From Bdellovibrionales bacterium CG10_big_fil_rev_8_21_14_0_10_45_34 (GTDB lineage: Bacteria > Bdellovibrionota > Bdellovibrionia > Bdellovibrionales > 1-14-0-10-45-34), in NCBI GenBank assembly GCA_002778785.1, contig PEZS01000011.1, positions 62,001 to 126,000 of the forward strand: a stretch of 64,000 nt of DNA, written 5' to 3'. Below, in pieces: positions 1-58,660 of the stretch (the first letter of the stretch is position 1; the number at the start of each line of letters is the position of its first letter). The notes below the pieces were generated by a model. It saw nothing but the letters and a program-made list of their open reading frames with translations, was not told the origin of the DNA and searched no databases. The position numbers and the translations under genes are program-made.

Positions 1-3000
1 GATGATGGCAGACTACCTCATCGTTACAGTGGTGTTTATATAGCCCAGCAAGGCGCCAAGATCGCCCCACCTCAAATTGGTGAACTGCTGTTAAAAAATG
101 GCAGTGTTTCACCCGATACTACGAGATCTGAGTTAGACATTTCTCTGTCGTCGACGGCGACCTACTTAGTGCCGGATATCAGAAAGAAACGAGATCAAAG
201 AAATCGCATAGAAAACCCGACAGGACTTAGTAGCAGCATCTTCGCTATTGACCCTGGCTGGGATTCTGGAGACAACGGGTTTAACTTAGTGGCTTTGCTT
301 TCAATATCAAATAACGCAAGCGTGCCCCAGAGATTTCAGCCTTTTCGAGTTGATGCAAGTTTCACCAAGCTTCTAAACGTCTCCCAAGTGCTGATTCCCA
401 AAAGCGATTCAACGGCGACTTTATACATTATCTATTCGGTTGATACTTCCGAGGCTGGCAGCGAGGGCGCCTCAGGCAGGACTCTCTGCAAAATCATCGA
501 CATCGAGTACTCACATGGTGCCATTAACTCAAATGGTTCAAGAGATGTAATTATTTCGAAAGAGCAAGCCTATCTCGGCACCGATTTAAATGATCGACTC
601 CATTTGGATCGTTCGGGAAGCTTACTTATCCAGACTGATGGCGCTGAAAAACGCGAGGGTCGAAAAGACATCGTTAGCTTTATGAATCTCTCCGTTGGTA
701 CACGATTGGAAGTACGAACGAGAGAATTTTCAACTAGCGGCCTTCAATTACTGAGCACTCAGACCGCAGAAGGGGCCGAAGGTTCCGTAGGGTCGCTTAT
801 ATCGACCTCAAACAACATGATGCAGGAGTCTTGGAAAGTATACGGCCTCATGCAGTTTGCTAAGAGACTTGCAGCCATGGGAATCGATGTCGATTCCACT
901 TTTAAAAACGTTAAAGGCAGCAATCAGGGCAATGAAAGCAAAGACGGAAATGCGAAGAAGAATAGGACGCAAGTCAAATTTGACCAGCTCCGTGAAACGG
1001 CAAGACGAAAAGTAGCCAACGGTAAAATCCTCATTAAACTAGGGAACGACGGTCGATCCAAATTTTTCTCTGATTTTTTCGAGCACATTGTACGGTTAAA
1101 CTCCCAACGCGGAGAACATGAGTATAGGGACAAGTGGTTAAGGGCATCAGATCTCGGCATTTACTTTTCTGGAAAGGACCTAGATCCACAAGATATCCGC
1201 TTGAATCAAGGAAGAATTCTCACTGATTCTAGCGAACCTACAGCATTGTTTGTCGATTTACGGGGATTACTCGATTGGGTGGAAGGAAGAATTGAGCAAC
1301 AAAGCGAAGATTTCGCGGCAGACCCTGTGAACTCTTCAGACCTGGATTCGATGGCCTCGTCATATAGCGACTCTGCCGCGGGAGTTCAGATGGGCGAAGA
1401 TGGGCCCTCAGGTGATGAAACTGCTGACTTAAGAGTCAAACTAATTGAGGGAGCGCTAAATCAACTCGTCGGTTCAGACTCAAAATTAACTAACCATGCA
1501 AATACAATTCTTGTGGGAACTTTCGAAGACATTGAGTACATCAATAGCGCGCTCGGTAAAACGGGCAATTCGCTTGATTCTTTTGGCCTCGAGGTAAACT
1601 CGAGTTTTGCCAACAATGTATTTTCAGCTGGCGATCCACAGTCTGGTGAAGTTCCTAGCGCAGTAAAAGATGCGATGGAGCACCCAAGTACTATTACAGA
1701 GGAAAAGATCATTGACTCCGTCTTTGAAGAGCTCAGAAGCGCGGCGACCCCAAATGCGGAAACTGCAGTGAATACGGTGTTCTTAATTCCTGATGAACTG
1801 CTCAGCTACGTTAATCGCATTGTGACAAGTGTATGGGCAGACACACGACCGGCCCGCGCCAGCGAACTTTGGAGTTGTCAAAATTCGCGATTAAAGTTGT
1901 TCCTCGCCTCCTCCGGTCTCGTTTCTGTTTTGGAAGCTTCCAAACAGCCTGCCAATACCTTGGCCTTCGACCATTTAAAACAAATGGACCCCGCTCAGGG
2001 AACTGCGAGTGTATTTGTAGGAGACCTCGATACTATCCGTAAGATGGGACGGCACATCTCTCAGTCTGCAAAAGGGCCACTACATATTTCTGATCCTCTT
2101 GACCCAGAGCGATTGGCAACACCTCACTTTCTTTACCTACTAGCAAATGACGGCTCTGTTCCTGGTGAAATACCTCAAGACAGAACAGGTAAACGGTCGA
2201 AGAATCGCGGTAAGTCTATAATACTTTTGGGAACTGAATCGCAGTGGGAAAAACTACAAGGAGATTTAACCCTTGAGAACAATCTTGGCCTTGCCAAGAT
2301 GTTCACCATTAAACGAATCGAACGCCCGACCGTCGAAGCAAGGGTATCTAGAATTGAAGATATTTTAAACGAATTCAAACTCGGAGAACTTGGATATAGA
2401 TTCGATATCTCGACAAGGTCGACTTCGCAAAAGAATATTATCGTTAACTCGACTTCATCTAGCAAAGAATTTGCAGAGTATCTGGTCAATCGGGCAGATA
2501 ATATATCAACCGAAAACAAAACCGAAGTCACAAGTAATTATGTCCGAATGGAAACGAACTTGCGCGACTTGATTAAGAATGATTCAGAGATTCGAAGAAC
2601 AAAAGTACTTGATCGTACATTTGCTGAACGAGTTCTTGCCAAGGCGTTTGGCCTAGCTCTCCATTATGAAATTCTGCCAGAAGATGATCCCATTCGAATT
2701 TTGCAAAGAGATGACGGAACTTTTGCTGCCATGGAACTGCAAAGAAGAGGGTACAATGGGCCAATTGAACTAAAGCTTAAGTTTATCAAGGCGCTCGCAA
2801 ACCAATCACAAAATACTTCTGTGCTGCCGATTCCTAGTTCGCAAATTATTTACGGTCGCGGAGGCACCGGAAAAACTCTTCTGTGGACGACTACCGTCCT
2901 AGGTGTTCTGAACAGAAAGTTATACGATTTCGCAAATGGCGCAGAGAACGAAGATGCGTCAGCGATGATGATTGATGTTAGCAAAGTTGCAACTGTGAGC

Positions 3001-4794
3001 AATTCTCGAGATGTCTATAGCGAGGACCTCGTTGACGACAACTTCGAGGACATTGAGGAACACTTACTTCGATTTTTAAGCGGCCCAAATGGATACCGTG
3101 GTTATGTATTGCTAGATGATTTGCATAAGGCCCCTTCCGATGTTCTTAAGAGGTTTATTACTCTTATCAATTCTCTGTTCTCAGCTCCCAATGGCATATT
3201 TACTCGTCGGCTCAGAAATGGAGAAGTTGTAAGCTTTCCAATTCGAAACTTGAGCTTAACTATAACTTTGAATCCCCCCTCAGACATTAGCAAGATTAAG
3301 AAGTTCGGAGGATCCGGAACTAAAGTAGACGTGGGAAGCATTTTAGCGTCCTTGAACACCGACGAAAATTCTGTTGAAACATCCTTTGTCACACGCTTTG
3401 GCACCATCATTCCCCTTGACGTATTTCCCGTAGAAGCTAAAGGGCCGCAGCTGCAGAAAGCAGTATCCGAACTGTCGAAGCAGTATTTTGATAGCGCAGG
3501 AAGACTCACTCTTCTTGGTCCTCAAGTTGCCCAACGAATTGCTGACTCCTTTAAAGAGACTAACGTGCGCGAGTTCGTGCCGGAGGCCTCAAGAAGTATT
3601 ATGCAACTTTCACGACGTGGCTCTAATCAGTCCAATCTTGTTTCGATTGTCATTCCTAAAAGTCGCCTTCGAAAGGCTTCGACTTCATCGGGTTACGAAT
3701 TTGGAGGGTTAAACTCCACGTCAACCAAGAATGATCCCTTTGAGGTTGAAGGCCGTGATAGTACGAGGATTGCAACAATTATTGAAGATAACTTTACATC
3801 AGTCCCTATAGATCATGGTTTTGATGGACGTCTCTATTTAACTGAGATGTTGGTCGACTCATTCAGAACCACACTCTATCAAACACTCATAGAAGGAATT
3901 CAAGAGAGCCAAGCATTTTTAAATATTCAAAACAGGGGTGAGGACGCCGGCGGCATCTTAGTTTATGCCATAAATACGAATCTAAAAGCGAGACCGTTTC
4001 TACCGCTAAGTTTGTTGCAACTGTTCCCCGAACACTATGGGATCAGAAATGTGGTCGACGCAAATACGTTTAGGCAGGGAATTCAACTTATTTCACGAGC
4101 CGAGGAAAATTATTTCCCCGTTAATTTTGGTGTGCAGTCCTCGCTGGCAGAGCTATTGGGCTCAGAAAGCCTTAGGAACTATCGAAGAAGTGACGTTTTA
4201 TCTACCTTCTCTACAGTGCTCTTAGACCCAGTAAGGCAGTTTCTTGAGAAAATATCCTACTTCAAAACTCAAGATGGAAATTTGACTCCTAGTCAATGGA
4301 TCGATTTGCTCCCTGAGTCGGGAAAACCAGAGTCGGCGAAGCAAACTAAGAGAGCAATGCTTGTTATCGCCCACCAAATTCTCGACGCTTTTTTTAAATT
4401 TGCCCATGAGATCAACGATCGAAATGTGCATGAGTCGAGAAGTCGAGGAAATACCAGAAGTCCCGATTTATACGATATTTCGCGCCTATTCATGATCGTG
4501 ATTGATAAATCTATCAGCGCTCTCCCGTGGAGTTCGCTACAGAGAACCGTAAGCGAAACACTTATAGAAAGCACCAAGTCTCTACAACTTGCACAGGATC
4601 GCAGATTTCAAAACTATTTCTTTCAAACAGAGAATACGTTAGTTAGGCCCGGCGACCCTATGACTTTAGAATACGTGTCGGCTAGCTATCCTCCTTACAA
4701 GAATCTGGAGAAAAACGATGGTTTGAGGGAAAAGAACTCCAATTTCGAGTCTTCCTGCCGATTGTTTTTTTCCGAAAACATGGGTGAGAAATGA
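1..4794 (+). CDS. Giant Clp/AAA+-like ATPase, 5' end outside window
   Basis: Frame 1 is open from the first base, so the visible 1597 residues are only the C-terminal part. A GTG at 169 exists but nothing marks it as the start. The first ~700 visible residues are mostly beta-rich and unrecognised. Around residues 740-790 there is a sensor-1-like stretch (ILLGTES, then a conserved ErPtVE pattern) that resembles the end of a Clp/ClpB D1 module. A clear Walker A GRGGTGKT lies at 952-959, a Walker B-like VLLDDLHK at about 1036-1043, and a sensor-1-like TITLNPP at about 1087, reminiscent of MoxR/dynein-type AAA+ proteins. The long remainder is unknown. The stop overlaps the next start (ATGA), so the two genes are translationally coupled. 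Function is unknown; I infer an ATP-driven remodelling machine working with the VWA protein that follows. Confidence 0.8.
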   Translation, partial: DDGRLPHRYSGVYIAQQGAKIAPPQIGELLLKNGSVSPDTTRSELDISLSSTATYLVPDIRKKRDQRNRIENPTGLSSSIFAIDPGWDSGDNGFNLVALLSISNNASVPQRFQPFRVDASFTKLLNVSQVLIPKSDSTATLYIIYSVDTSEAGSEGASGRTLCKIIDIEYSHGAINSNGSRDVIISKEQAYLGTDLNDRLHLDRSGSLLIQTDGAEKREGRKDIVSFMNLSVGTRLEVRTREFSTSGLQLLSTQTAEGAEGSVGSLISTSNNMMQESWKVYGLMQFAKRLAAMGIDVDSTFKNVKGSNQGNESKDGNAKKNRTQVKFDQLRETARRKVANGKILIKLGNDGRSKFFSDFFEHIVRLNSQRGEHEYRDKWLRASDLGIYFSGKDLDPQDIRLNQGRILTDSSEPTALFVDLRGLLDWVEGRIEQQSEDFAADPVNSSDLDSMASSYSDSAAGVQMGEDGPSGDETADLRVKLIEGALNQLVGSDSKLTNHANTILVGTFEDIEYINSALGKTGNSLDSFGLEVNSSFANNVFSAGDPQSGEVPSAVKDAMEHPSTITEEKIIDSVFEELRSAATPNAETAVNTVFLIPDELLSYVNRIVTSVWADTRPARASELWSCQNSRLKLFLASSGLVSVLEASKQPANTLAFDHLKQMDPAQGTASVFVGDLDTIRKMGRHISQSAKGPLHISDPLDPERLATPHFLYLLANDGSVPGEIPQDRTGKRSKNRGKSIILLGTESQWEKLQGDLTLENNLGLAKMFTIKRIERPTVEARVSRIEDILNEFKLGELGYRFDISTRSTSQKNIIVNSTSSSKEFAEYLVNRADNISTENKTEVTSNYVRMETNLRDLIKNDSEIRRTKVLDRTFAERVLAKAFGLALHYEILPEDDPIRILQRDDGTFAAMELQRRGYNGPIELKLKFIKALANQSQNTSVLPIPSSQIIYGRGGTGKTLLWTTTVLGVLNRKLYDFANGAENEDASAMMIDVSKVATVSNSRDVYSEDLVDDNFEDIEEHLLRFLSGPNGYRGYVLLDDLHKAPSDVLKRFITLINSLFSAPNGIFTRRLRNGEVVSFPIRNLSLTITLNPPSDISKIKKFGGSGTKVDVGSILASLNTDENSVETSFVTRFGTIIPLDVFPVEAKGPQLQKAVSELSKQYFDSAGRLTLLGPQVAQRIADSFKETNVREFVPEASRSIMQLSRRGSNQSNLVSIVIPKSRLRKASTSSGYEFGGLNSTSTKNDPFEVEGRDSTRIATIIEDNFTSVPIDHGFDGRLYLTEMLVDSFRTTLYQTLIEGIQESQAFLNIQNRGEDAGGILVYAINTNLKARPFLPLSLLQLFPEHYGIRNVVDANTFRQGIQLISRAEENYFPVNFGVQSSLAELLGSESLRNYRRSDVLSTFSTVLLDPVRQFLEKISYFKTQDGNLTPSQWIDLLPESGKPESAKQTKRAMLVIAHQILDAFFKFAHEINDRNVHESRSRGNTRSPDLYDISRLFMIVIDKSISALPWSSLQRTVSETLIESTKSLQLAQDRRFQNYFFQTENTLVRPGDPMTLEYVSASYPPYKNLEKNDGLREKNSNFESSCRLFFSENMGEK

Positions 4795-7700
4795 AACGAG
4801 ATACTTACGTAAACAAAAGTTTTTTCGGCATCGCAAAGTGGTACTCAGTTTTGTTTGTTTTTTGTTCAGCAGTTGGCTACGGCCAAGGCCAAAAAGATAA
4901 CTCTTCTCATCAGAAAAGCGGGGCGTGTGATAACCTCCTTGTGGCTGGCCAGGCTGGTAAAGTTGAAATTGTAGGAAGTGGACGCAATGACGACGTAATG
5001 CCATTTTTAGAGCAAGAGGTTCAGGACATAATGGGACCTGGCGGCATTGCAGATCGGCTAGGAATACCACTTCCTCACGGGCAGGTTAACTTCGCTCCGT
5101 CTGACGTTTTGACCTCGATGGCGGCTGTAGGGCGCCATCCGATAGGACACTCTCATGATGGTTACGGAATTGTTTCGGGGTCAGCCGGCGCCGGCGGCGT
5201 ACTAGAGTTTGTAACTCCCGCCTGCACCACCTGCCGTTCCTACTATCAGGACTCCACCAATCCAATGGAGCAAGTTGCGATTCTTCATCATGTTGTTGGG
5301 CATAATCACTTCGCTGCAAGAAACCCGAGGGCTAGACAGCGAAATTCTGATCCAATGGAAGCCGCTCTCAGGTTACACAACGCAGTTGCCGCTGCGAGAG
5401 CTGAGGTTGGAGACGACGAACCAGAAGTGTTTTATCGCTTTCTGCAGTCGACCTATTCTCTGCAACCTTTTAATGGAGCACTTTTCCGATCGCCAGAGTA
5501 TTTTGCAAACTCCAAGTTTCACCAGCCGGGTCACTCTCTGGTCGAGTTTGGGGGCGCGCTAGATCAAAACTCCCTCCAAGCACTCGTGGCGGCCATTCCT
5601 GCGTCAGCCCCAGAATGGAAGAAGAAGATTGCAAAGGAATTTGAAGAGGTTTACCGAAGTTATGGCTACTACTCGCCGTTCAAAATCATGAACGAGGGTT
5701 GGGCTACAATTTTAATGGAAATATTGCCTACACATTCAAAGTGGGCCAACAATGATGAATACCAGTTTAGGCTTGCTCATCTCATGACCGGCGTCGCCTA
5801 TCCGGGCTTGTCGAACCCCTACTGGCTTGGGCGAGAAGCGTGGCGAAGACTTCGAGCACGATTTAATGAAAAACCTGAAATTAAAAATCTTAGCCCTTTT
5901 GAAAGGGACAAGAAGTTTATCAGCTACGCTGACGAGTTGATTAGAACAACGGCTAATGATTACGATTTCCTGCGACTAGCCCTTGATGAAAGTTTTGTAC
6001 TTGAACATGGGCTGTACATCCAGAGAAAACTTGAAATGGATGAAGTAGACTGGAGCCTGCCAGGTGATGACAACCTCCCTTGGCCGTACGCTCAATATGA
6101 AGTTGACAGTACCAACCCCCAAGAAGTTATTCGTTTCATCGCCGATTTGGTCGCCGACAAGGAAAAGTCCGCCCCTCCTGTCGGTATCGTTAGTTTTAAG
6201 GGAGCAGGAGATAGCTCACTCCAGTTTCGCTCAGCTTCTTTTAAAAAGGTGCCTATTAATAGATCGGAACTCGGGCAAGCACTCTATGTATTTAGCCAGA
6301 TTATCGAGCGACCTATATCATTTGACGGTTGGTTTATTTTAAAAGGAGTTGATTCGGCTTCGCAGGATAAATCTCTGCCATCTCCGCCATGGTACAGACC
6401 TACTGCTGCTAAGATGGAAATGCTTCCACTTCGTGTTAAGGTCTCACCAGAAGGAAAAGTAGATATTAGAGTTCTAAGATATGGTGCGGAAGATTCCGCT
6501 CAACCCATGTCTATAGACTGGAGCACTGTAGAGATCGATAATGGCGAGTTGGCGTCTTGGATTCAAAGTGAAATTGAGAAACTTAAGGGATCTTTAGAAG
6601 GTCGGATTCAGTATTTTCACGATCATACCGGCCTTACCGTAAGTCGCGCGGGACGTGAATCCTTTAGTAACAGATTTCGAGAGCTTGTTACCACTATCAC
6701 GAACGGACAGCTTAATGAATTTCGTAGTCAGGTAATCCATCAGACTCCTCACCTACCAGAAGCTTTGCTCCGCTATGCAGACATGCTCAGAAGAATCTTG
6801 CCAGAAAGAATGCGTGCTTTCGCTCAGGGCAAGCTTCGTTCTAAAATTGGGCGAAATGGCACGAAGATTTCCGTCTTCCCGCCTATTCCTCACATTGATT
6901 GGGACTGGAAGGGTTTAGAGGCTTTTGAAAAGTGGCAAAAAGAACAAGCTGACGACAAACGCCATGGCTACTACTTAGTTCAAAATAATGCAGGACTTGC
7001 GAATACGCTCGCGTCGATCGCAAAAGAAGGCGTTTACGAAGTCAATGGACCGTTCGACCATTTGCGTTTTCAAGAACTGGCAGATGATAGGCAAGGAAAT
7101 GACGATCCAAATCAACAGATGAAGACCTCGAGTCTTGCACCAGTTCCTAGCGCTGACTCCTCTTTGTTTGTACCTTCAAATGTTTTAGCTAAAGAATACG
7201 CCAAAAGAGTTTGGGCGCCTACGCAGAAAGGTACTTCCGTTTCGAATTCACAAACGGGGCTATCGTGGGATTCAAAAAGTAAAAAAGCCTTTACTGATGT
7301 ACCTAAGGAGTTGCTTTTAGCTGCTGGGGACCGAAAAATCGGTTCAGACCCTAGAAAGAAGCGGAAGGGCGATCGATACTGGGGCCCAGATGACTCCCAA
7401 GAAAAAGGGGATGGCGACGGCGAAGAAGATGGTGAAGGAGACAGTGAAGAAAGTGACGACGGCGAAGGAAAAGAACCCAATCCTGGAGTACCTGGTGAGG
7501 ACGGTTTTATAGAGATTCCTGATGATGCGTTCGCCACAATCTTAACTGAGCTTTTTGAACTTCCAAACACGCGGCCAAAAGCAGCTGGCGATAAAAAGCG
7601 AGAAGATGTGAGAGCTGGCGAAATGCACCAGGTTAGCGGTGAAGTCCTTTGGGATTCTATGGCTGACCGAATTATCTCCTTAGGTAAAGCTTCCTTACAA

Positions 7701-8351
7701 AGACAGGGCGCTGTAAAGCCCACGGCGAGAGAATGCTATGAGGAAGGCGTGAAATTTCTTACTGACACAGATTTTATTGTGCGAGGTAGAGAGGTAAGGC
7801 CTTCCCCTGAAATTCAAGCCGTCTTAGTTTTTGTTATTGATATGAGCGGAAGCATGAGCGGGGAACCCTACCGGATTTTGAGAAAAGTCCTCAGAAATAT
7901 GCGACTCCTCTTGAAAAAGAAATATAAAAAGATCGATATTCGAATTGTAGGTTTTAGTGGCGAAGCAAAAGAATTCAAAGAGGAAAACTGGCACAAATTT
8001 TTTATCGGTGGCAGCACTGATTACGTGCAAGGCCTATCACTTGCTGAAAAAATACTTTCAACGTACTCAGCAAGTTCGTACGACAAGTATGTGGTCATCG
8101 GCGGGGACGGGCAGGATGTAAATCCTCAGGGAACAATTAACTTCACTAAAAAATGGGCACCAATGCTTCAATACCTTTCATTCATACTTACAGATGTTTA
8201 CGGTATTGGAGTTGATGGACTGCCAATTGCTTCCTTCTACGCTCAGCAATCCAAGTCTGATCCTTACTTTGGATTTTCTTATGTTTCGGATGCCCTTGGC
8301 TCCGAGGCCAAGGTCATGAATGATCTGTTTGGCAAGAATAAGAAAAAGTAA
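4791..8351 (+). CDS. SpoVR-like domain fused to DUF444-type VWA domain, with N-terminal signal
   Basis: 1186 residues. Residues ~10-31 form a basic-then-hydrophobic signal or anchor. Residues ~150-420 carry SpoVR-family hallmarks: an HHVVGHNHF motif near 166, NEGWAT near 301, and an NPYWLG segment followed by a DYDFLRLAL-like motif. A highly acidic Gly/Asp/Glu linker follows at ~870-905. The C-terminus (~1005-1186) is a VWA domain with the MIDAS motif DMSGS at 1017, a downstream GGSTD Thr and a GGDGQD segment; the EAKEF...GGSTD region resembles DUF444 (YhbH/YeaH). SpoVR and DUF444 proteins are normally separate cytoplasmic partners of the kinase PrkA, so a single exported fusion is unusual. 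The start overlaps the stop of the AAA+ gene. I infer a metal-binding adaptor of the neighbouring AAA+ ATPase. Domain calls are by motif only. Confidence 0.8.
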   Translation: MKRDTYVNKSFFGIAKWYSVLFVFCSAVGYGQGQKDNSSHQKSGACDNLLVAGQAGKVEIVGSGRNDDVMPFLEQEVQDIMGPGGIADRLGIPLPHGQVNFAPSDVLTSMAAVGRHPIGHSHDGYGIVSGSAGAGGVLEFVTPACTTCRSYYQDSTNPMEQVAILHHVVGHNHFAARNPRARQRNSDPMEAALRLHNAVAAARAEVGDDEPEVFYRFLQSTYSLQPFNGALFRSPEYFANSKFHQPGHSLVEFGGALDQNSLQALVAAIPASAPEWKKKIAKEFEEVYRSYGYYSPFKIMNEGWATILMEILPTHSKWANNDEYQFRLAHLMTGVAYPGLSNPYWLGREAWRRLRARFNEKPEIKNLSPFERDKKFISYADELIRTTANDYDFLRLALDESFVLEHGLYIQRKLEMDEVDWSLPGDDNLPWPYAQYEVDSTNPQEVIRFIADLVADKEKSAPPVGIVSFKGAGDSSLQFRSASFKKVPINRSELGQALYVFSQIIERPISFDGWFILKGVDSASQDKSLPSPPWYRPTAAKMEMLPLRVKVSPEGKVDIRVLRYGAEDSAQPMSIDWSTVEIDNGELASWIQSEIEKLKGSLEGRIQYFHDHTGLTVSRAGRESFSNRFRELVTTITNGQLNEFRSQVIHQTPHLPEALLRYADMLRRILPERMRAFAQGKLRSKIGRNGTKISVFPPIPHIDWDWKGLEAFEKWQKEQADDKRHGYYLVQNNAGLANTLASIAKEGVYEVNGPFDHLRFQELADDRQGNDDPNQQMKTSSLAPVPSADSSLFVPSNVLAKEYAKRVWAPTQKGTSVSNSQTGLSWDSKSKKAFTDVPKELLLAAGDRKIGSDPRKKRKGDRYWGPDDSQEKGDGDGEEDGEGDSEESDDGEGKEPNPGVPGEDGFIEIPDDAFATILTELFELPNTRPKAAGDKKREDVRAGEMHQVSGEVLWDSMADRIISLGKASLQRQGAVKPTARECYEEGVKFLTDTDFIVRGREVRPSPEIQAVLVFVIDMSGSMSGEPYRILRKVLRNMRLLLKKKYKKIDIRIVGFSGEAKEFKEENWHKFFIGGSTDYVQGLSLAEKILSTYSASSYDKYVVIGGDGQDVNPQGTINFTKKWAPMLQYLSFILTDVYGIGVDGLPIASFYAQQSKSDPYFGFSYVSDALGSEAKVMNDLFGKNKKK

Positions 8352-8663
8352 AAGCAAAAGTATTTATATAGAGGTAAATGTTGGTTCCGCTCGTCGCAGG
8401 TGGATCCGTACTTGCCTCCTTTTGGACACACGCGGGCTTTGGAAGCAATTCGCTTGAGGAGTTGAGCCTTTCCAATAAGAAATTCTAATGGAAAATAGAG
8501 GGTTTTGATTGGCACTTATAGATATTTTTCACAACCTTTTTCATTCAATTGCCATTTACTCGCAGTGTGAAAGGATTCAGCCCAAAGTATTCCTCTTTCA
8601 AAAAAAGCGTTTAATGCAATGTCTGAGGGTTAGGACAAATTCAGTCGTAAAGAAGGAGCATTC
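8352..8663. other. 312-bp gap within the AAA/VWA cluster
   Basis: No credible gene. A short inverted repeat TTTCCA...TGGAAA lies near 8467-8492, and an AAGGAG ribosome site sits at the right edge, seven bases before the next start. I see no convincing sigma-70 or sigma-54 promoter, so whether the third gene is co-transcribed cannot be decided by eye. Confidence 0.4.
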
Positions 8664-9992
8664 ATGACAATCAATTTGAAAACGTTTTTCCAAAGCTACT
8701 TAGGTCATTCTTCATCAACTACTGGAATGGTTTTATTTCAGGTAGCTGGGGTGCTCGTACTTTTACTTAATGTACTTTTCTGTTCGATTACAGCATTTGC
8801 GAGTAACCGGTCGGAGTTAGATTACTGTGAAAACCTCGTTCAGGCCCCCAGTAAAGTAGACCCAACTCCTGCTATTCTCCAGCCTACAACTACAAGGCTT
8901 GAAATCCCGGAGGACTCTGAAAACTTAAGAAGGCAAAGCCAAATTGCGAAGTCCAAGTTAGTTGGAAGAGACGCCTTACTGCAAGATTTGCTTAAGACCA
9001 TCGAAGCAAAAGCGGCGTTTTCGAGTAAAACCGACGCCCCTATTCTATCAATTATGGCAGTTGGTCCTACCGGAACCGGAAAGAGCCAGCTAGCAAAGGC
9101 GCTTGCGGCAGCTCTACATGGGGATGAAGGCAAAGTCCTTAGAATAAACATGGGTGAAGCAATCGGCGACTACAGCCTGGGGGGGGCGCCGCCGGGACTT
9201 GCTGGAGCGGACACTCCACCGATGCTTAGCAACAGTCAACTGAGTTCTGTAACTAGTGAAAAGAGTGAAGTATCAATTGTTTTAGTCGACGAAATCGAAA
9301 AATCCAAAGCATCTCATTTGGGTGCGAAAGATTTGTTAGATATATTTTTATCGGTGCTTGAGGGGCACTTCACTACCGGTAAAAACCAAACCGTGGATCT
9401 CGGTAAGACCGTATTTATTTTTGCGTCAAACACCGGCACTGCGCAAATTGCCAAGCGAAAAACCTCGATTGGTTTTGTTAAAGATATCGAAGAAGTCAGC
9501 GTAGTATCAGAAGCATCAAGTATTCGAGGTGACGCAAATGGGAGTAGTTTTTTGGCTCTTTATAAAAGTTCTGTTGAAGCATCTTTTAAACCAGAGTTTT
9601 TGAATAGAATTGACCACCTAGTTTTATTCCCCCCACTAACAAGTCAAGAACTTGCTAAAATAGCTGAAATCACTTTTGAATCCTCAAAGAACAACTTTCT
9701 GGATAATCTTCCGCCAACAATTTTTTCTGTCGATTATGAAGTGTATGAATGGATTTCTGAACAAGCAATAGAGCCGGAGAAATACAACGGAAGAGCCGTG
9801 AAGCGAGCAACTGATGTGCACTTGATTAGTCCGTTGCGTCAGATTTTGTTACCGTTTGCGATTAAAAATTCAAATCGCTTACCTATTGGCGACAACTACA
9901 TTGAAATACACGTGAAATTGAGTCATCAGAGAAACGGCATTGAGTTTTTTAGAAATGTATACGGGCCTGCAGTCCACCCTAACCGCAAGTAA
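8664..9992 (+). CDS. Signal-bearing ClpB D2-like AAA+ ATPase
   Basis: 442 residues. The ATPase core looks intact and matches the second AAA+ module of ClpB/HSP100: Walker A GPTGTGKS at 134-141, Walker B VLVDEIEK at 206-213, sensor-1 Asn in FIFASNTG at ~258, an arginine finger in FLNRID at ~315 and a sensor-2 Arg in GRAVKR at ~376. The ClpB N-domain, first AAA+ module and coiled coil are absent. The first ~47 residues contain a long hydrophobic segment ending AFAS, which reads as a signal peptide or single membrane anchor. ATP is not normally available in the periplasm, so the protein is either anchored with its C-terminus in the cytoplasm or exported in an unusual way. The start has an AAGGAG site. 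The neighbourhood suggests it works with the two genes before it. Confidence 0.82.
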   Translation: MTINLKTFFQSYLGHSSSTTGMVLFQVAGVLVLLLNVLFCSITAFASNRSELDYCENLVQAPSKVDPTPAILQPTTTRLEIPEDSENLRRQSQIAKSKLVGRDALLQDLLKTIEAKAAFSSKTDAPILSIMAVGPTGTGKSQLAKALAAALHGDEGKVLRINMGEAIGDYSLGGAPPGLAGADTPPMLSNSQLSSVTSEKSEVSIVLVDEIEKSKASHLGAKDLLDIFLSVLEGHFTTGKNQTVDLGKTVFIFASNTGTAQIAKRKTSIGFVKDIEEVSVVSEASSIRGDANGSSFLALYKSSVEASFKPEFLNRIDHLVLFPPLTSQELAKIAEITFESSKNNFLDNLPPTIFSVDYEVYEWISEQAIEPEKYNGRAVKRATDVHLISPLRQILLPFAIKNSNRLPIGDNYIEIHVKLSHQRNGIEFFRNVYGPAVHPNRK

Positions 9993-10028
9993 GACATGTA
10001 GCAAATTGGCGAAGTCTATTAAAATTCT

Positions 10029-10223
10029 CTAGCGGTACTTGCAGATGCCAAGCAATTTCTCGACGTCGTTGCAAAAGTAGACTTGGCATCTTGGATCGCT
10101 GACTTGGCCATTCCATTCGAAGTAGGCTCTTTTGTTTCCTAAGTTTGGATCGTCTACGTATTTCATTTGTGCTTTGGTACAAGTTCCAAAATACGTACAC
10201 GAAATCACTGACCCCGGAGGCAA
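10029..10223 (-). pseudogene. Cys-rich open frame after the Cys-repeat gene, possible remnant
   Basis: A 64-codon frame directly downstream of the large Cys-repeat gene, in a different frame and just after an in-frame TAG. It could only start at a TTG and has no ribosome site. The peptide has five Cys and several Trp/Tyr/Phe, a composition like the end of the neighbouring protein, so it may be a decayed duplicate of that C-terminus. It may equally be chance. Confidence 0.25.
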
Positions 10224-10267
10224 GCTGCGAGACTAGGTCTTGCAGCTTCAGAATAAAGGGGACAGGC

Positions 10268-12625
10268 TCAGTTGCACGTTCTTTTGTAAACACAGTTGAC
10301 GCGCCACTTGTGATTGTTCGGGTACCTGCAAAACCATGGACCACTTCCAAGGTCTTTCCACCAAGTCCCGTCCCATCCAAAGCGGTTTGAGTTTCCGCCT
10401 TGGAAGCATGTGCCAGGAGCTTGATTGAAGTTTGGAGCCGAATCAGAAGGCGAATGCTGAACCCTGTTCTCAAAGCAAGTCAGCGGCGTTCCCATCGGAA
10501 GTGGACTGTTCTTTAAGTACGAGAACATTCCAGAAGTCCAAGAGCTCTTTGTGCAATCATCATTCAGATCACCATATGTAGCGTGATAAAACTCCGCTCG
10601 TGCGAAGCTCCAGGACGACGAAGTATCAAGTGGAGGAAGACAATTTAACGTCTCCCCTGGACTCACCTCAACACGTCGACAAGAGTTGCTTCCGCTTCCT
10701 CCCGTTACGCATTCCTGCCCAATAACGATGCCGGAACACGAGTGGTTTGCAGGCTCTGCATCGCAAGACCCAATTGTTGATATTTGGTTTCCTGGTATTT
10801 GAAAACCCGTAGGTGTCGAAGTGCCATTGTCACAGCGGTACTGAACCAAGTTCTGATAGATTCCGTAGAGGACCCCGCCGTAAGGACAACTCAAAGGCTG
10901 CTTTCTAGTGCCCTCAACTTCGTACCACGTTGTTAAATGCTTACGACTTCCACAATCTTTAGGAGGTGGTGGATTGCACGCTCCTTCGTACCCAATGAAA
11001 CTGCCTTGGCTGGTTCCACTCGTTGCGCTCTGCCCATTGTTACAACTGTATTGAGTCAGAGACTCGTAAAGTTTAAATTTATTGCCACCATGCGCGCAGA
11101 CTTCAGGTACTTTAATTGGCGCGCCTTCAATTTGCGTCCAACTGGAACCATGTGAATTATTGCCGCAAGTTTTTGGGGCGCACGACCCTTCAGTACCTTG
11201 TGACTCTCCTTTTCGCGGATCGACTTGTGGCTTTGGTCGGATGGTTCCATCAAAGCACTGATAAAGAATCTCTCGCGCGTAGATATCAAAGTAGCTGGCG
11301 CTAGAATCATATTCGCAAACTTTTGGTTCTTTTGTTGTTCCTTCAACGATGTACCACTCATCAAGATGCTTTCTGGCATCACCGCAATCTCTTGCCGGCG
11401 GTGGACACTCCCCTGTTCGCGACACCAGATCTCCCGGGCGAGAGTTCCCAGTAAGACTGCTTGAACCATCGTCACACCTATATTCCACCTGTTTCTTAAA
11501 TAGTTCAGTGATTGTGCTTTCGCTGTTTGTACAATTGATGACATCTTCGGTTCTCTCTTCCGAATCTTGCCACCACGTACTGCCATGCGGATGATTGCCG
11601 CAAGAAGCCGGCGGCGGCGGATTGCACGCCCCTGTTTCACCAATTTTATTGCCCTTCAAAACTTCTGTCGTCATCTGAGTGTTGAAGCAAGTATCTTTAA
11701 TAATTCTCTCAAACAAAAAGACCAAATTACCACCGTGCTGACAGCTTTGCGGCACTTCTAAAACTCCGTCCGCTTTGCTTCGTGAAGTATCGTGCTCCAT
11801 ATCTGCACAGTTCGTCGTTGGAGCCGAGTTGCAGGACCCCGTCGTAACTCCTGGCTCAACGAGCTCAGGCTCTCCGATTTGAGAAATTGTGCCATTGTCA
11901 CAAGTCTTCTGGACGCTTGTTTGATGGGTGGTTACAAGACTCCCGCCGTAAAGACATTCGCCAACAGCGATAGCCGGATCACCTGACTCCTGCCAAATTT
12001 CTCCATGAGCTCGATCACCGCAACCCACCGGAGGCGGAGTTCCGCAGGAGCCCTCCTGACGTATGGGGCCCACCCTTTGAGTATTACCTGTGGGTTCAAT
12101 GATTCCTTGATCGCAGCGGTACTCAGTTTTGTCGGTATAAACATTCATCAAGTTGCCCGGATACAAACAAATCGCAGGCTCTTTGACCTCGGCATCAACT
12201 GTCCACACCGAGCCATTACTCTGACTGCCACAATTGGTCGTGGGCTCCGTGTTGCATGCGCCTTGCCTACCAATTTCTTCTTCGCGAGCAGGCGTTTGTG
12301 TTCGGCCAGTCGTACCGGAGTTACACGCGTACTCCAACCATATACGATAATGTATTTGAAGGTTTCCACCATTGGTTCCGCAATCGCCCGCCCGCCACTC
12401 CTCCCGGGTCGCCTCTTCAAAGACGTCTCCGTGTGCAATATCGCCGCAAGGCAGGTTCGGAGGGCCGACTATTCCGCCCGGCTCAATGCCATCGCCAAAA
12501 TTTTTTTGAGGCGCTGTATTCTCCAGAACACGAAACTCCGCCGGGGCGCAGTTTTTATAGGTGACGCTAATGCCCGTAAGCAAGGAAATGACTAAAAACC
12601 ATCGAGTGAATCCAGAACCCAACAT
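10268..12625 (-). CDS. Exported Cys-rich protein with eight tandem repeats
   Basis: 785 residues from the ATG at 12625, chosen because GGAGG lies five bases upstream and a hydrophobic signal begins there; the frame extends further upstream without support. The signal ends in TYKNCAP, which could be a non-canonical lipobox. After a short linker there are eight repeats of about 55-80 residues. Each opens with CG followed by His/Gly (for example CGDIAHG, CGNNSHG, CGSRKHL), has an internal Cys before GG, then a CDNG-like Cys, and closes with G-S/A-C, often followed by a Pro-rich joint. Four Cys per repeat suggest two disulphides each, fitting an extracellular location. A different Cys-containing C-terminal domain of ~130 residues follows. 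Function is unknown; an adhesin or surface scaffold is plausible. One diverged copy of the repeat appears in the lipoprotein at 53 kb. Confidence 0.85.
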   Translation of the reverse strand: MLGSGFTRWFLVISLLTGISVTYKNCAPAEFRVLENTAPQKNFGDGIEPGGIVGPPNLPCGDIAHGDVFEEATREEWRAGDCGTNGGNLQIHYRIWLEYACNSGTTGRTQTPAREEEIGRQGACNTEPTTNCGSQSNGSVWTVDAEVKEPAICLYPGNLMNVYTDKTEYRCDQGIIEPTGNTQRVGPIRQEGSCGTPPPVGCGDRAHGEIWQESGDPAIAVGECLYGGSLVTTHQTSVQKTCDNGTISQIGEPELVEPGVTTGSCNSAPTTNCADMEHDTSRSKADGVLEVPQSCQHGGNLVFLFERIIKDTCFNTQMTTEVLKGNKIGETGACNPPPPASCGNHPHGSTWWQDSEERTEDVINCTNSESTITELFKKQVEYRCDDGSSSLTGNSRPGDLVSRTGECPPPARDCGDARKHLDEWYIVEGTTKEPKVCEYDSSASYFDIYAREILYQCFDGTIRPKPQVDPRKGESQGTEGSCAPKTCGNNSHGSSWTQIEGAPIKVPEVCAHGGNKFKLYESLTQYSCNNGQSATSGTSQGSFIGYEGACNPPPPKDCGSRKHLTTWYEVEGTRKQPLSCPYGGVLYGIYQNLVQYRCDNGTSTPTGFQIPGNQISTIGSCDAEPANHSCSGIVIGQECVTGGSGSNSCRRVEVSPGETLNCLPPLDTSSSWSFARAEFYHATYGDLNDDCTKSSWTSGMFSYLKNSPLPMGTPLTCFENRVQHSPSDSAPNFNQAPGTCFQGGNSNRFGWDGTWWKDLGSGPWFCRYPNNHKWRVNCVYKRTCN
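10763..12448 (-). repeat. Coding tandem array of eight four-Cys repeats
   Basis: Eight diverged protein-level repeats inside the Cys-rich gene. Unit starts are marked by PCGD, NCGS, GCGD, NCAD, SCGN, DCGD, TCGN and DCGS, each with a His-Gly or similar pair a few residues on. DNA identity is low, so the array is old rather than recently expanded. Confidence 0.8.
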
Positions 12626-12761
12626 GGAAGCCTCCACATCAATGTATCGGAATAGGAATGCCCCATCTTGAGATAAAACTGGCAGCACCGATTCGGGGTT
12701 ACAACTCAAGCGCCAAGGTTGCGGGTTTCTCACTTTGAGACGGTGCATTCTGACTTCACAG

Positions 12762-13467: not shown

Positions 13468-14940
13468 CTATCGATCTGATGATTGAGTTATTCTAGGGCC
13501 CGCTGCCGCGCTCATTAGATCGCGATATTGAGGCGTGGCAAGCTCGAGAAGGGTCTTCACCATATTCACTTCGTTGTTCGAAACAGGGTCAATCTTTCTA
13601 AGTTCTTCGCTCAAAAACTTGACCACATCTGCAAAAATCAGAACATCTTGGTCGGTAACTGAAGCTCTCAATCCACTTTCTTTAAGAGGAGCAAACTCGC
13701 TCAACACGTCCTGCTCCCAGTTCGGCGAAGTTTCTGCAATTCGCACCTGCTTCGCATATTGGTAATCTTTCAAAAATTCTGAGTTGAGCGCTCTCATTAG
13801 TTTTTCAAGTTGCGTGACTGTTTGGATGAGAGATTTTTGCAAAGGCGTGTGTACAGCGATCGGGCCACCTTCAAAACTCGATGAACCGAAAACAATCTTA
13901 GAAACGTCTTGTTCGACTTCAACAGAAATCTTACTGGCACTCGCTTGATTTCCTGTGTTACTCAGACTTTGTTGAACAGATGGAGGCGAAGAACTCTGAA
14001 TCTGAGCTATTGCTTCTTCAACATGACGCTTAAACTCCGATCCCACAGTCTCGAACTTATTATCCTGCGGCTTCTGATAAAGAGCCGTTACCCAGCGCCT
14101 CGTGTTTTGGCGTAGCTGATTACCCACGGCCGCTACATAGACAGCGGTGGCTTCTGCTTTTTGGCCAAATACATTCAGTGCATATGCCTCCATGCCTTGA
14201 AATCGAATTCTGAGGCCCTCTGGTATGTCGAGCAAGTTCAATGCTTGGTACTGATTTTCGATCGACCGAACGTAGCTAACTTTCTCAAGAGAACCACCAG
14301 CTAAAGTCACTCGGGTTGGGCCTAGATCTCTCTTTGCTTTATAGTAGCCGAGTGTCGCTTTCGAGGCAATAGAGAGCTTAATGAGTGGCTTCGAAACCTC
14401 TGCGCTTCTACTATTGTTGCCGCCGGTATTCACTTCGAGCTCACCTTCTTCTGACTTCGACGACTGCGAAGCTGCTGGACTCTGTGTTTCTTCAGATTCT
14501 GTCAGCATGTATATAAGAGAATACTTGAGATTTAAACGGTGACCTCGCGTACCTGTTTGACTCCCGGTCTCGTTGCCTACTTGGCCTTCTCGATTGGTCG
14601 AAACATTCGAAGCGTCTGCACGACCGCTCTCGGTATCAAGCGCAACTGATTCTAATACGATATCTAGCAGTACTGCCTTGCCTTCGAGATGCAACTGCTC
14701 TTCTAAAACTGTAGAGTAAAAGACCTCGATAGCCTCAAGAGCCAAAGGTTCGATATTAGGTGCGACTTCTGGTCCAAGACTTTTTGGGACAGACGAATCT
14801 ATTGCTGAAGAATTTCCGCGAAACGCGCTAGCCGCTGGAGATATCCAGTAAAAGAGCTCACAGCTTTTTTCATTGAACACTTGTTCGGCAAAAGAATTTA
14901 CGCTCGAACACGTCAAAAATATCAAAAACAAATACTTCAT
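13468..14940 (-). CDS. Exported protein of unknown function, CxLF family
   Basis: 490 residues with a clear signal peptide (about 19 residues ending SFA). The ATG is preceded by GGAG eight bases upstream. The mature protein starts with a Cys-Glu-Leu-Phe motif, contains a Ser/Glu-rich low-complexity insert at ~110-180 and is otherwise helical. A segment with LEA...Y...E spacing resembles the protein encoded just upstream at 15166-15777, which also opens with CxLF, so the two are probably paralogues. I recognise no domain. Likely periplasmic. Confidence 0.7.
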   Translation of the reverse strand: MKYLFLIFLTCSSVNSFAEQVFNEKSCELFYWISPAASAFRGNSSAIDSSVPKSLGPEVAPNIEPLALEAIEVFYSTVLEEQLHLEGKAVLLDIVLESVALDTESGRADASNVSTNREGQVGNETGSQTGTRGHRLNLKYSLIYMLTESEETQSPAASQSSKSEEGELEVNTGGNNSRSAEVSKPLIKLSIASKATLGYYKAKRDLGPTRVTLAGGSLEKVSYVRSIENQYQALNLLDIPEGLRIRFQGMEAYALNVFGQKAEATAVYVAAVGNQLRQNTRRWVTALYQKPQDNKFETVGSEFKRHVEEAIAQIQSSSPPSVQQSLSNTGNQASASKISVEVEQDVSKIVFGSSSFEGGPIAVHTPLQKSLIQTVTQLEKLMRALNSEFLKDYQYAKQVRIAETSPNWEQDVLSEFAPLKESGLRASVTDQDVLIFADVVKFLSEELRKIDPVSNNEVNMVKTLLELATPQYRDLMSAAAGPRITQSSDR

Positions 14941-15165: not shown

Positions 15166-15777
15166 TCATCTCCCAAACTTGCGGTGGATGTCTTTAACTA
15201 TTTCCCATTCGTGAGACGTCATTCCAAATGCCTTTCTTGGATTGCGGCCCATCTGAATATAAACCTCTTCTTTATCGATTTCTGCCATTAGTGCGGAGGC
15301 GTACTTTACTTTCTGAAGCGAACGGATTTCATCGCCCTTTAGGTCTTGCGTCCAAATCACGGAGTGACTCACTTCTAACAGCGGAAGCATTCTTACATAC
15401 TCAGATAGAGCGCCATCTCTATAGTAGACTTTGTAGTTTACCTGAAACGAGCCTTGGATAGTTAGAGGTAAGACGCCGTCTATTCTAATGTCGAGCACTC
15501 GAAATCGTGTTTTTTGGGCGAGCTCTTTGATAGCGTTCTTATAGAGCCACCCGTGAAAAGCCTCTAAGTGAAAGTCGGCTGGAGTTGCAAATGGCGATCG
15601 CCACATAAAGCTCGAAAGACTCGAAAACAATTGGCAGGCACTAGCTGCTTGACGAGGCATTGGCGAGTCCTGATCCACGGAGGCCCGCGCCTCAAAACCG
15701 AGTGTAAGGAAAACAAACATAAGAAAGAGATAATTTAGCCGCTGTGTAGGACTTTTTATTCGACCGGTTAAATTCAT
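15166..15777 (-). CDS. Small exported protein, probable paralogue of the CxLF protein
   Basis: 203 residues. The N-terminus is basic, followed by a hydrophobic stretch ending EARAS (signal peptide). The mature part begins with ACQLF and has a segment (LEAFHGWLY, then KELAQ and a beta-rich region) that can be laid against the larger protein encoded downstream. It lacks the low-complexity insert and the C-terminal half of that protein. Both lie on the minus strand, separated by 225 bp in which I see no gene. Function unknown. Confidence 0.68.
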   Translation of the reverse strand: MNLTGRIKSPTQRLNYLFLMFVFLTLGFEARASVDQDSPMPRQAASACQLFSSLSSFMWRSPFATPADFHLEAFHGWLYKNAIKELAQKTRFRVLDIRIDGVLPLTIQGSFQVNYKVYYRDGALSEYVRMLPLLEVSHSVIWTQDLKGDEIRSLQKVKYASALMAEIDKEEVYIQMGRNPRKAFGMTSHEWEIVKDIHRKFGR

Positions 15778-19331: not shown

Positions 19332-20441
19332 ATGAAAGCCTTCCCATTATTCGCAGTCTTTATGCTTGGCCTTTCGGGGCAAACGTGGGCAATTGGCAGC
19401 ACCGCCCCTTTAGAGTGCAGCGGCTTGCTGACTGCCCCTCTCATGTTGGCTATAGGTTTTAGAAAAAATCTTAGCATTGAAGAAACAGACGCCCTCATCG
19501 AAGCGCGACTCCCCAGACCGGCTGCAAATGGGTTCGATGTGGAAGTTCGAATTTCTGCTGTCTCACTTAACCCCGTCGATACCAAACAAAGAAAAGGCCG
19601 CGAAATAACAAACGAAACTCTTCAAATACCCGTTTGGGATGCTGTCGGCATCATTTCAAAGATCGGCGATCAAGTCGACCACCTTAAAGTGGGTGACAGG
19701 GTTTTCTACTCAGGCGATCTCAATCGGCCCGGGGCGGCCTCTGAATACCACGTAGTGGATTCTCGCTTAGTAGCTCTGGCGCCAAAGTCGATCAGCGACG
19801 CCGAAGCTGCAGCACTACCACTCACCAGCCTGACAGCCTACGAAGGCCTATTCGAGCAGCTAAGAGTCATCCCAGGAAAGACCATTCTGGTAGTTGGTGG
19901 GGCCGGAGGAGTAGGCTCGATGGTTATTCAGCTTGCAAAGCTTGCTGGCCTCAATGTTATCGCAACAGCATCACGAGACGAAACAATTCTGTGGGTAAAA
20001 TCTTTTGGCGCTAATTCGGTGATCGATCACAGAGAGAGACTATCGGAGGGCTTAAAAAAGATAGGCGTAGACAATGTTGACTATATTTTTAATGCTGCCG
20101 ACACTGCGACATACTGGAGTCAAATGGAAGAAGTCATCCGCCCGTTTGGAAGGATTGTTTCGATTGTTGAAAGTTCGATACCGCTAGATTTAACAATCAT
20201 GATGAAAAAGAGTGTCACGTTCTCTTGGGAACTTATGTTTACGCGGTCCCTGTTTCAGACAGAAGATATGCAGGAGCAATCTAGAATTCTCTCGAAGATT
20301 GCATCCCTCGTAGACGAAGGCAAGATTCGCTCCACAATTTTCCGCTCAATGTCTCCGATCAATTCCGAAAATATGAAAGAGGCTCATAGACTGCTTGAAT
20401 CTGGAAAATCCATAGGGAAAATCGTCATCTCCGAATGGTAG
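19332..20441 (+). CDS. Zinc-type/quinone oxidoreductase-like MDR protein with a signal peptide
   Basis: 369 residues. From about residue 37 the protein is a medium-chain dehydrogenase/reductase of the NADPH:quinone reductase-like branch: SLNPVDTKQRKG, then GDRVFYSG, and a Rossmann motif VVGGAGGVGS at ~187-196. The catalytic zinc Cys residues are not evident. The first ~20 residues are a good signal peptide (hydrophobic core ending GQTWA) and the ATG has an ideal AGGAG six bases upstream, so translation from there is well supported. An exported NAD(P)H enzyme is odd: no twin-arginine motif is present to carry a folded cofactor-loaded protein. A later ATG at 19443 would give the plain cytoplasmic enzyme but has no ribosome site. 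Probably controlled by the divergent LysR protein. Confidence 0.85.
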   Translation: MKAFPLFAVFMLGLSGQTWAIGSTAPLECSGLLTAPLMLAIGFRKNLSIEETDALIEARLPRPAANGFDVEVRISAVSLNPVDTKQRKGREITNETLQIPVWDAVGIISKIGDQVDHLKVGDRVFYSGDLNRPGAASEYHVVDSRLVALAPKSISDAEAAALPLTSLTAYEGLFEQLRVIPGKTILVVGGAGGVGSMVIQLAKLAGLNVIATASRDETILWVKSFGANSVIDHRERLSEGLKKIGVDNVDYIFNAADTATYWSQMEEVIRPFGRIVSIVESSIPLDLTIMMKKSVTFSWELMFTRSLFQTEDMQEQSRILSKIASLVDEGKIRSTIFRSMSPINSENMKEAHRLLESGKSIGKIVISEW

Positions 20442-57332: not shown

Positions 57333-58535
57333 CTACAATGTTGGAGAGCCTAAAATTATGGGAGCAGTATACGCTTCTACTCCAAGTTGGTAATAAATAT
57401 AAACCGGTGCCCCACTAAAAGGACCATAAAGTTCACGAATCGGTTTATAAAACAAATCAATATCTTTTTTCAGGTCCAAGTAAACCGGATTAAGATTCAT
57501 CTCTGCATCAGCAAAAGCTTCAAGACGACGCTTCCTGCGAGCCTCAATTATCGCTAGCTGAACTTGTGCCAACCATTTAGAAGCGTTAGCTATCGCAGCA
57601 CCCGATTCATATCGTAAGTAGGTTTTCTGCCAACTTTCTTTAACTTCCGACTCTGGGGTCGGTTTACTCGGCTGCGTAGCTGCTCCGCGACGCCTCTCTC
57701 CATCTAGCACGCTAAAAGTCTTCTGGCTTTGCAAGGTGAGGTGCTTAAGTAACGCACTAAAGATTTCTATTTCTTTTTTCAGTTGGGCTTCTACTTCCGC
57801 CTCAGCATCTAAGTAGCTAACTTCAGCGGCTGGCGTTAACGTCCAGCGAACCTTGTACTCTAACAGTTCTGCAATTCGCTCATCCAGCAACATCTCTACA
57901 ACCGCCGGGCTCGGAACACCCAATTCTGGCCGGCCCCTGTACCAATGCCAATTGCCCGATCCTTTCTCAATCTTAAGCGCCTCTGACTTTTGTTGAACCT
58001 TTATACGAGAAACCCGTTCGTGAATGTTTTCGTAGATGTTATTGACTCTAAACTCCTGATTGGCAGTCCTCTCCGAAATGTCACTGTAGAGTTTTAGTTT
58101 TTCATCAGAAGAACTCATCCTCTGGCCTATTTTGTTACGCAGTGATTCGAGTCGAGCCCACTCTACTTCGGTCTCGTAGAGTGCATCCAGTCTCATCCCA
58201 AAGACTTCTTGCGTTGCCATGACAACTTCAAAGTTTTGTGGGTAGCCTCGGATTTTGTTGGCCACGCGCGAGAAATACCTCATTGAATCTGCAAGCACAC
58301 CCCTTGCCGAATCGTAAATATTCTTGAGAGCTCTTGGCGGCACCAATACTGGTGGCTTGGGATAACTCGGATACTCCAACACCAACAACATCGCGCAAAA
58401 TTCAGGGGGTTCTTGATGAGCCTGACTTAACTTTGCGAAATACGCTGGAGGTGTAAAGTCTGCTTTCGCTTGGGGCAGCACAACACCTATCAAACTAAGC
58501 ACTAAACCGTACTTAAAAAACTGCCAATTTCTCAT
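57333..58535 (-). CDS. Exported helical protein of unknown function
   Basis: 400 residues from the ATG at 58535, chosen because a signal peptide (ending QAKA) begins there; an ATG at 58601 would add 22 residues. The mature protein is largely alpha-helical and charged, with possible coiled coils at ~75-160 and ~225-270 and a Pro-rich segment at ~52-62. A Cys in PEFCAML near the N-terminus is the only one seen. No domain recognised. It is probably periplasmic. Confidence 0.65.
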   Translation of the reverse strand: MRNWQFFKYGLVLSLIGVVLPQAKADFTPPAYFAKLSQAHQEPPEFCAMLLVLEYPSYPKPPVLVPPRALKNIYDSARGVLADSMRYFSRVANKIRGYPQNFEVVMATQEVFGMRLDALYETEVEWARLESLRNKIGQRMSSSDEKLKLYSDISERTANQEFRVNNIYENIHERVSRIKVQQKSEALKIEKGSGNWHWYRGRPELGVPSPAVVEMLLDERIAELLEYKVRWTLTPAAEVSYLDAEAEVEAQLKKEIEIFSALLKHLTLQSQKTFSVLDGERRRGAATQPSKPTPESEVKESWQKTYLRYESGAAIANASKWLAQVQLAIIEARRKRRLEAFADAEMNLNPVYLDLKKDIDLFYKPIRELYGPFSGAPVYIYYQLGVEAYTAPIILGSPTL

Positions 58536-58660
58536 AATCAGGTACCGTACAAAGTTTGCTGAAAAATAGCCTCTCGAAGGCATCACAATTTGTGTTGTCA
58601 TGATTATACTGGATTCGGGGCCCGGGCGTGAGGGTAATGATTACACGACGGGCAGAATTT

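Follow-up and report, generated by a model that had tools for sequence, protein, structure and literature searches.

The window, a 64,000-nucleotide stretch of the genome of Bdellovibrionales bacterium CG10_big_fil_rev_8_21_14_0_10_45_34, corresponds to positions 62,001 to 126,000 of contig C11 (genome G000, 3.06 Mb), and the 14 kb to its left was also read (locus L008). An open reading frame (ORF) at 8664–9992 on the forward strand encodes an exported-type Clp/HSP100-type AAA+ ATPase of 442 amino acids, which was assigned from matches to AAA_2 and the ClpB D2 domain and from a rule-based signal peptide. It is the last of five genes on the same strand, which together occupy 16 kb and all encode products with a predicted signal peptide. 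An earlier note on this DNA had described the ORF as a ClpB D2-like ATPase with a signal peptide or anchor. That observation was right but under-stated, as the neighboring genes encode a PrkA/SpoVR-VWA system predicted to be exported, and exported-type Clp-D2 proteins recur in the phylum.

Residues 126–318 of the product matched Pfam AAA_2 (PF07724, E 1.4e-24), and the top NCBIfam match was ClpB at model positions 553–843, corresponding to D2 (E 1.6e-38); the latter lies under the full-length cut-off, as expected because the product is a single domain. In the PDB, ClpC and ClpB gave the closest sequence matches, in both cases through their D2 regions (E 6e-29 to 1e-27). These three lines of evidence bore out the ClpB D2-like assignment. 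The accompanying claim that all ATPase residues are present holds for Walker A (GPTGTGKS, residues 134–141, 9063–9086), Walker B (IVLVDE in the stretch IVLVDEIEK, residues 205–210, 9276–9293), sensor 1 (ASN), the arginine-finger stretch (FKPEFLNRID, residues 308–317, 9585–9614), and sensor 2 (NGRAVKR, residues 375–381, 9786–9806). It does not extend to the pore loop at 9183–9206, which reads GAPPGLAG against GAPPGYVG in ClpB, the substrate-gripping tyrosine being gone. Matches in PADLOC reflected merely shared AAA motifs and were set aside.

The hydrophobic N-terminal segment ending in AFAS, also described in the earlier note, is real. The sequence and a rule-based scan placed a signal peptide at residues 1–46 (8664–8801), with a hydrophobic core at residues 22–46 and a predicted cut between AFA and S in the stretch SITAFAS, a site of the signal-peptidase-I type. 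A true start after this segment, which the earlier note had considered, is not favored by the sequence: a Shine–Dalgarno-like AAGGAG (8653–8658) lies 5 nt upstream of ATG 8664, the upstream in-frame TAG ends at 8633, and the first in-frame starts past the segment are TTG-109 and ATG-131, the latter three codons ahead of Walker A. These later starts are implausible, and a downstream start was rejected. A promoter and terminator scan of 8200–10400 yielded no more matches than shuffled sequences.

Cluster genes and their signal peptides

Gene 1 (L008:7935–9203, forward strand, to the left of the window) encodes a Clp-D2-like paralog of 422 amino acids with a signal peptide, and it is catalytically dead, the Walker B glutamate being replaced by lysine (D-K) and the arginine finger lost. 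Gene 2 (L008:9591–12353, forward strand, also off the window) encodes a PrkA-like protein of 920 amino acids with a probable start at ATG-53. Gene 3 (L008:12457–18795, forward strand) encodes an AAA protein of 2112 amino acids with a signal peptide, Walker A GRGGTGKT, and a C-terminal tail C-x-x-F-F; it starts 1.5 kb left of the window (C11:60456), and its C-terminal part occupies window positions 1–4794. Gene 4 (4791–8351, forward strand) encodes a signal peptide-bearing fusion of SpoVR (PF04293, E 2.3e-12) and DUF444/VWA (PF04285, E 1.5e-18) with 1186 amino acids. Gene 3 runs 4 nt into gene 4, and a gap of 312 nt separates gene 4 from 8664–9992; thus, gene 5 may have its own promoter.

The exported PrkA-like family and the genome's own canonical PrkA aligned over the full length (hhalign, 629 columns, probability 99.7, E 1.5e-25), and the PrkA Pfam domains, AAA and C-terminal, were each found in six of eight PrkA-like members. 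The genome also encodes a canonical PrkA (contig C16), DUF444, and SpoVR (contig C6), none of which has a signal peptide. Across the exported families, Walker motifs were retained at 20–35% identity; Walker A was present in 7/8 PrkA-like rows, the eighth lacking that region, and in 7/7 rows of the large AAA protein. All three components of the PrkA (YeaG)–DUF444 (YeaH/YhbH)–SpoVR (YcgB) system are homologous to cluster products, PrkA over its full length. The cluster differs from that system in its signal peptides, the fusion of SpoVR with DUF444, an extra AAA protein of about 2000 amino acids, and the added Clp-D2 proteins. Passages of PMC5430801 place the ordinary Bdellovibrio PrkA–DUF444–SpoVR operon at bd0228–bd0231. 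MoxR–vWA–beta-propeller ternary conflict systems share the AAA and VWA logic, and weak bpMoxR matches were observed, although these fall under the curated cut-off. A term search found SpoVR, PrkA, and signal peptide unmentioned in the text of PMC7159879.

The N-terminus of the window copy has the features of Sec export, with n, h, and c regions, an AXA site, and no twin-arginine motif, as judged by a home-made rule (a hydrophobic 11-mer with no charge until an A/G/S-type −3/−1 site). Its n-region is 21 residues long and weakly charged, with one lysine within the first 20 residues, and several homologs, such as those of genomes G160 and G129, have short textbook signal peptides. For counts by this rule, rows with a 5' end less than 150 nt from the locus end were dropped and identical inner sequences were counted once. 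The rule was positive for all 15 PrkA-like exported-type rows, for 22/27 SpoVR–DUF444 rows (of the five misses, four come from broken or truncated ORFs and the fifth, L259, has a signal peptide by eye), and for 17/20 large AAA rows (all three misses are fragments). Exported Clp rows were positive in 7/11 cases overall and 7/7 among the intact ones; the misses were a truncated Clp frame (L035), a ClpB fragment (L247), G316, and a G271 fragment lacking the N-terminal part, and the signal peptides of G316 and G271 were recognized by eye. None of the controls was positive (canonical DUF444/SpoVR 0/30, canonical PrkA 0/1, ClpB/ClpA of at least 700 amino acids 0/9); a 31st DUF444/SpoVR control row was a mis-filed exported G271 fragment and was left out. 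The cluster thus appears to be Clp and PrkA–SpoVR machinery relocated out of the cytoplasm to a predicted exterior location, with its ATPase motifs conserved.

Recurrence in the Bdellovibrionota

A profile of the 2112-residue AAA protein matched 26 of 368 Bdellovibrionota genomes (E 1e-10); genus g4, to which 24 of the 368 belong, gave no match. Strong matches to the SpoVR–DUF444 fusion were found in a minority of 140 genomes of the order, alongside canonical DUF444. The order PrkA-like, large AAA, SpoVR–DUF444 was repeated in most intact loci; G129 and G133 contained the PrkA-like and SpoVR–DUF444 genes, and the large AAA profile had no match there. A short-pattern scan for the fusion (K[IF][MV][NH]EGW[AS], from alignment A1) recovered mainly canonical SpoVR and was discarded. 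A tandem pair of exported SpoVR–DUF444 copies was observed in G291 (L264:1–5590), and in G271 (L250 and L242) none of the exported-type genes for SpoVR–DUF444, the large AAA protein, and Clp-D2 is in one piece, which decay or sequencing error may explain.

Exported-type single-D2 Clp proteins were identified in 8/368 genomes by profiles and ORF reading. G000 has two copies, and the others are those of G160 (593 amino acids), G132 (649), G129 (576), G337 (561), and G316 (544), together with two incomplete ones (G271, split by stops, and G131, a 5' half at a contig end). The predicted design of 8664–9992 is thus more than chance, since distinct genes built in this way are present in seven further genomes of the phylum. 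A Clp search of the 140 genomes at E 1e-20 retrieved only the two own-genome copies as short signal-bearing frames. A profile of these two gave better-than-ClpB matches in G271 and G160, and broader profiles gave the rest; because ClpB matches begin at 1.6e-77 and G316 lies inside that range, further exported Clp proteins may have been missed. Three of the eight genomes with exported Clp also have the large AAA protein, against 26/368 overall (P 0.014), which is suggestive only.

At 21–35% identity, the window copy and most of the remaining exported Clp proteins still have Walker A, Walker B, and the arginine finger, and several have a stretch in common ahead of Walker B (TS-x-K/S ... V-x-I/V-V-L-V-D-E). 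The pore-loop tyrosine is retained in the exported Clp of G160, G132, G129, G337, G131, and G271. In a tree of D2 domains (30 sequences), the six exported Clp proteins included besides the window copy fell into one group (support 88/98). A single clade for all seven was neither demonstrated nor rejected (approximately unbiased test, p-AU 0.41), and Clp-D2 may have been relocated once or several times.

Two of these genes lie in longer runs. In G129, the exported Clp gene adjoins one for a TelA-like protein (PF05816, 31.1 bits against a cut-off of 30), likewise of exported type, and the run at L329:3289–12407 comprises exported proteins including Clp-D2, the TelA-like protein, and an 1128-residue protein. 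G316 L323:1984–12714 contains eight consecutive genes whose products have, by eye, signal-like N-termini followed by cysteine, with the exported Clp-D2 in the middle of the run; three of the eight products are near copies (SAAACKEIANTNNG).

Cysteines near the mature termini

The mature window protein has a sole cysteine, Cys55 (8826–8828, forward strand), which is the ninth mature residue and stands in the motif C-E-N-L-V. Among rows with a called signal peptide, a cysteine no more than 34 residues past the predicted cut was found in 22/22 SpoVR–DUF444, 15/15 PrkA-like, and 7/7 exported Clp sequences, and mature Cys46 of the SpoVR–DUF444 fusion is invariant in alignment A1 (ten sequences). The large AAA protein has no cysteine after its signal peptide and carries a similar motif at its C-terminus in 18 of 19 C-termini examined. 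By a hand-entered tally, the shape shared by the cluster families is C-x-x-hydrophobic-L. As background, a cysteine occurred within mature residues 1–30 of 25/82 and 28/84 exported soluble proteins in two genome samples.

A general secretion tag of the form C-x-x-[LF] after the signal peptide was rejected, with 2/70 in a sample of the own genome against 3.9 expected by shuffling and 5/75 in the G006 sample against 5.4; a looser cysteine motif fared no better (4/84 against 4.7 and 6/77 against 7.2). The count of 6/14 for C-x-x-[LF] in the window and L008, against 1.27 expected, is no test, because the motif was first spotted there before counting. Conservation of the motif across homologous families is better evidence than this count. 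The terminal cysteine may link the components to one another or to a common anchor.

Other proteins of the window have comparable features. The product of 19332–20441 (forward strand) is a zinc-type alcohol dehydrogenase/quinone oxidoreductase (PF13602, E 1.7e-18) that begins with a signal peptide and has its only mature cysteine in ECSGLL, representing another normally cytoplasmic kind of enzyme with an exported look. The genes at 13468–14940 and 15166–15777 (both reverse strand), located 3–6 kb downstream of the cluster, encode exported-type proteins without a Pfam match and with single mature cysteines in the same motif (SCELF and ACQLF, respectively). The gene at 57333–58601 (reverse strand) likewise encodes an exported-type protein that has no Pfam match and one mature cysteine, in EFCAMLL. 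An 826-residue protein encoded at 10268–12748 (reverse strand) has 43 cysteines past a hydrophobic segment and contains repeated CGxxxHG-type units.

Possible site and energy source of the ATPase

Our proposal is that the Sec route would carry the Clp-D2 protein across the inner membrane, with cleavage after AFA, and export of this kind is quite probable. As Sec export, indicated by the lack of a twin-arginine motif, would release the protein unfolded and without bound ATP, it would, as an ATPase, have to meet ATP outside. It may belong to an exported AAA+/VWA set derived from the cytoplasmic PrkA/DUF444 (YeaH/YhbH)/SpoVR (YcgB) stress system, and would hydrolyze ATP outside its own cytoplasm for protein remodeling or assembly, perhaps in a ring with the catalytically dead paralog of gene 1. 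The ATP would most likely come from another cell, for instance from bacterial prey that harbors the bacterium or carries it on its surface. We infer that such hydrolysis, remodeling proteins with ATP from another cell, is somewhat probable, and ATP-driven work outside the cell as such is about an even matter. That a whole apparatus for ATP-driven remodeling and stress signaling (Clp-D2, PrkA, the giant AAA protein, and SpoVR–VWA) has moved outside, is joined by C-x-x-hydrophobic-L, and is powered by ATP from another cell is a bolder idea and is doubtful.

Several observations weigh against our proposal. The Gram-negative periplasm is described in parts of PMC10014586 and PMC11366764 as devoid of ATP. 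A search of the 140 genomes for the ATP/ADP carrier (TLC, PF03219) gave no match; the controls also had none, and hence this search is uninformative. The pore-loop tyrosine lost from the window copy argues against ordinary threading, and in the D2 tree this copy is a very long branch outside every supported group. The signal-peptide rule is permissive, as other ORFs of at least 250 amino acids in the same loci were also positive (121/229) and the neighborhoods are rich in envelope proteins; the contrast with the cytoplasmic paralogs is thus the informative part.

The earlier note had offered two topologies, and an N-out (type III) anchor with the ATPase facing the cytoplasm would make the protein an ordinary membrane-tethered Clp. 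The weakly charged, 21-residue n-region and the intact catalytic motifs, in a protein that would then reach cytoplasmic ATP, fit such an anchor. The AXA-type cleavage sites and textbook signal peptides of the homologs speak for export instead, as do the four adjoining gene families that all have such segments, whereas their cytoplasmic paralogs lack them; the anchor is thus disfavored and quite improbable. Exported proteins that have become inactive relics, serving as structural, nucleotide-free or disulfide-linked scaffolds of the periplasm or cell surface, would agree with a compartment held to be without ATP, and likewise with the dead gene 1 paralog, the missing pore tyrosine, and a single conserved cysteine suited to covalent linkage. 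Against this stand the Walker motifs and arginine finger kept in the window copy and most exported Clp proteins despite their divergence and the Walker A retained in the PrkA-like and large AAA rows, which make relics unlikely, if a little less so than the anchor.

A narrower form of our proposal has the machine reaching the prey or bdelloplast and drawing on prey ATP there. The Bdellovibrionota are known for bacterial predators, and the second alternative of the earlier note, a secreted ATPase acting inside another cell, suits such a phylum. The Sec-type signal, by which the protein would not be exported preloaded, and the conserved ATPase motifs also speak for it. No secretion machinery was linked to the cluster, however, and the large AAA component had no match in genus g4; delivery to prey is doubtful.

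An exported Clp-D2 ATPase at work outside the cytoplasm would have counterparts elsewhere. The window protein has the D2 AAA domain of the ClpB/ClpC/HSP100 ring with Walker A, Walker B, sensor 1, arginine finger, and sensor 2, but it consists of D2 only (442 amino acids), unlike ClpB (about 860 amino acids), which has two AAA rings, an N-domain, and a middle domain; it further differs by its signal peptide, its lost pore tyrosine, and an 80-residue linker with one cysteine. The mitochondrial intermembrane space receives ATP through porins, and we know of no such supply for the periplasm. The intermembrane space is held equivalent to the periplasm in a passage of PMC10014586, and Skd3/ClpB resides there. 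Skd3 (human CLPB) is likewise a single ClpB-D2-type ATPase outside the matrix, and the PDB entry Caseinolytic peptidase B protein homolog was matched (E 1.9e-13), but the window protein has no Pfam ankyrin match and an unlike N-terminal part. Torsins, AAA+ proteins of the endoplasmic reticulum (ER) lumen, are ClpB-D2-like and pair an active protein with a catalytically dead AAA partner, LAP1/LULL1, as described in sections of PMC4358337. The window protein resembles them in its D2-like domain and its dead paralog, and would also do so in its extracytoplasmic compartment if the rule-based signal peptide is functional. Torsins, by contrast, borrow the arginine finger of LAP1, whereas the window protein owns FKPEFLNRI and its dead paralog lost its own; no torsin was among the 48 PDB sequence matches of the 8664–9992 product.

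The family names are already known, and the predicted compartment is what is new; a literature search of open-licence PMC papers turned up none that describes exported forms of PrkA, SpoVR, or Clp. The periplasm is taught as being without ATP, and hence without ATP-driven chaperones, and these exported-type AAA+/VWA families are a direct test of that rule. If the four exported-looking families, whose ATPase motifs are conserved through the phylum, do leave the cytoplasm, either ATP reaches the cell exterior, or they act in other cells, or their motifs serve another use. If our proposal is true, they would be bacterial analogs of torsins and Skd3 and candidate exported factors of predatory bacteria; under the bolder idea, the bacterial envelope or the prey would host AAA+ activity, much as the ER lumen does with torsins.
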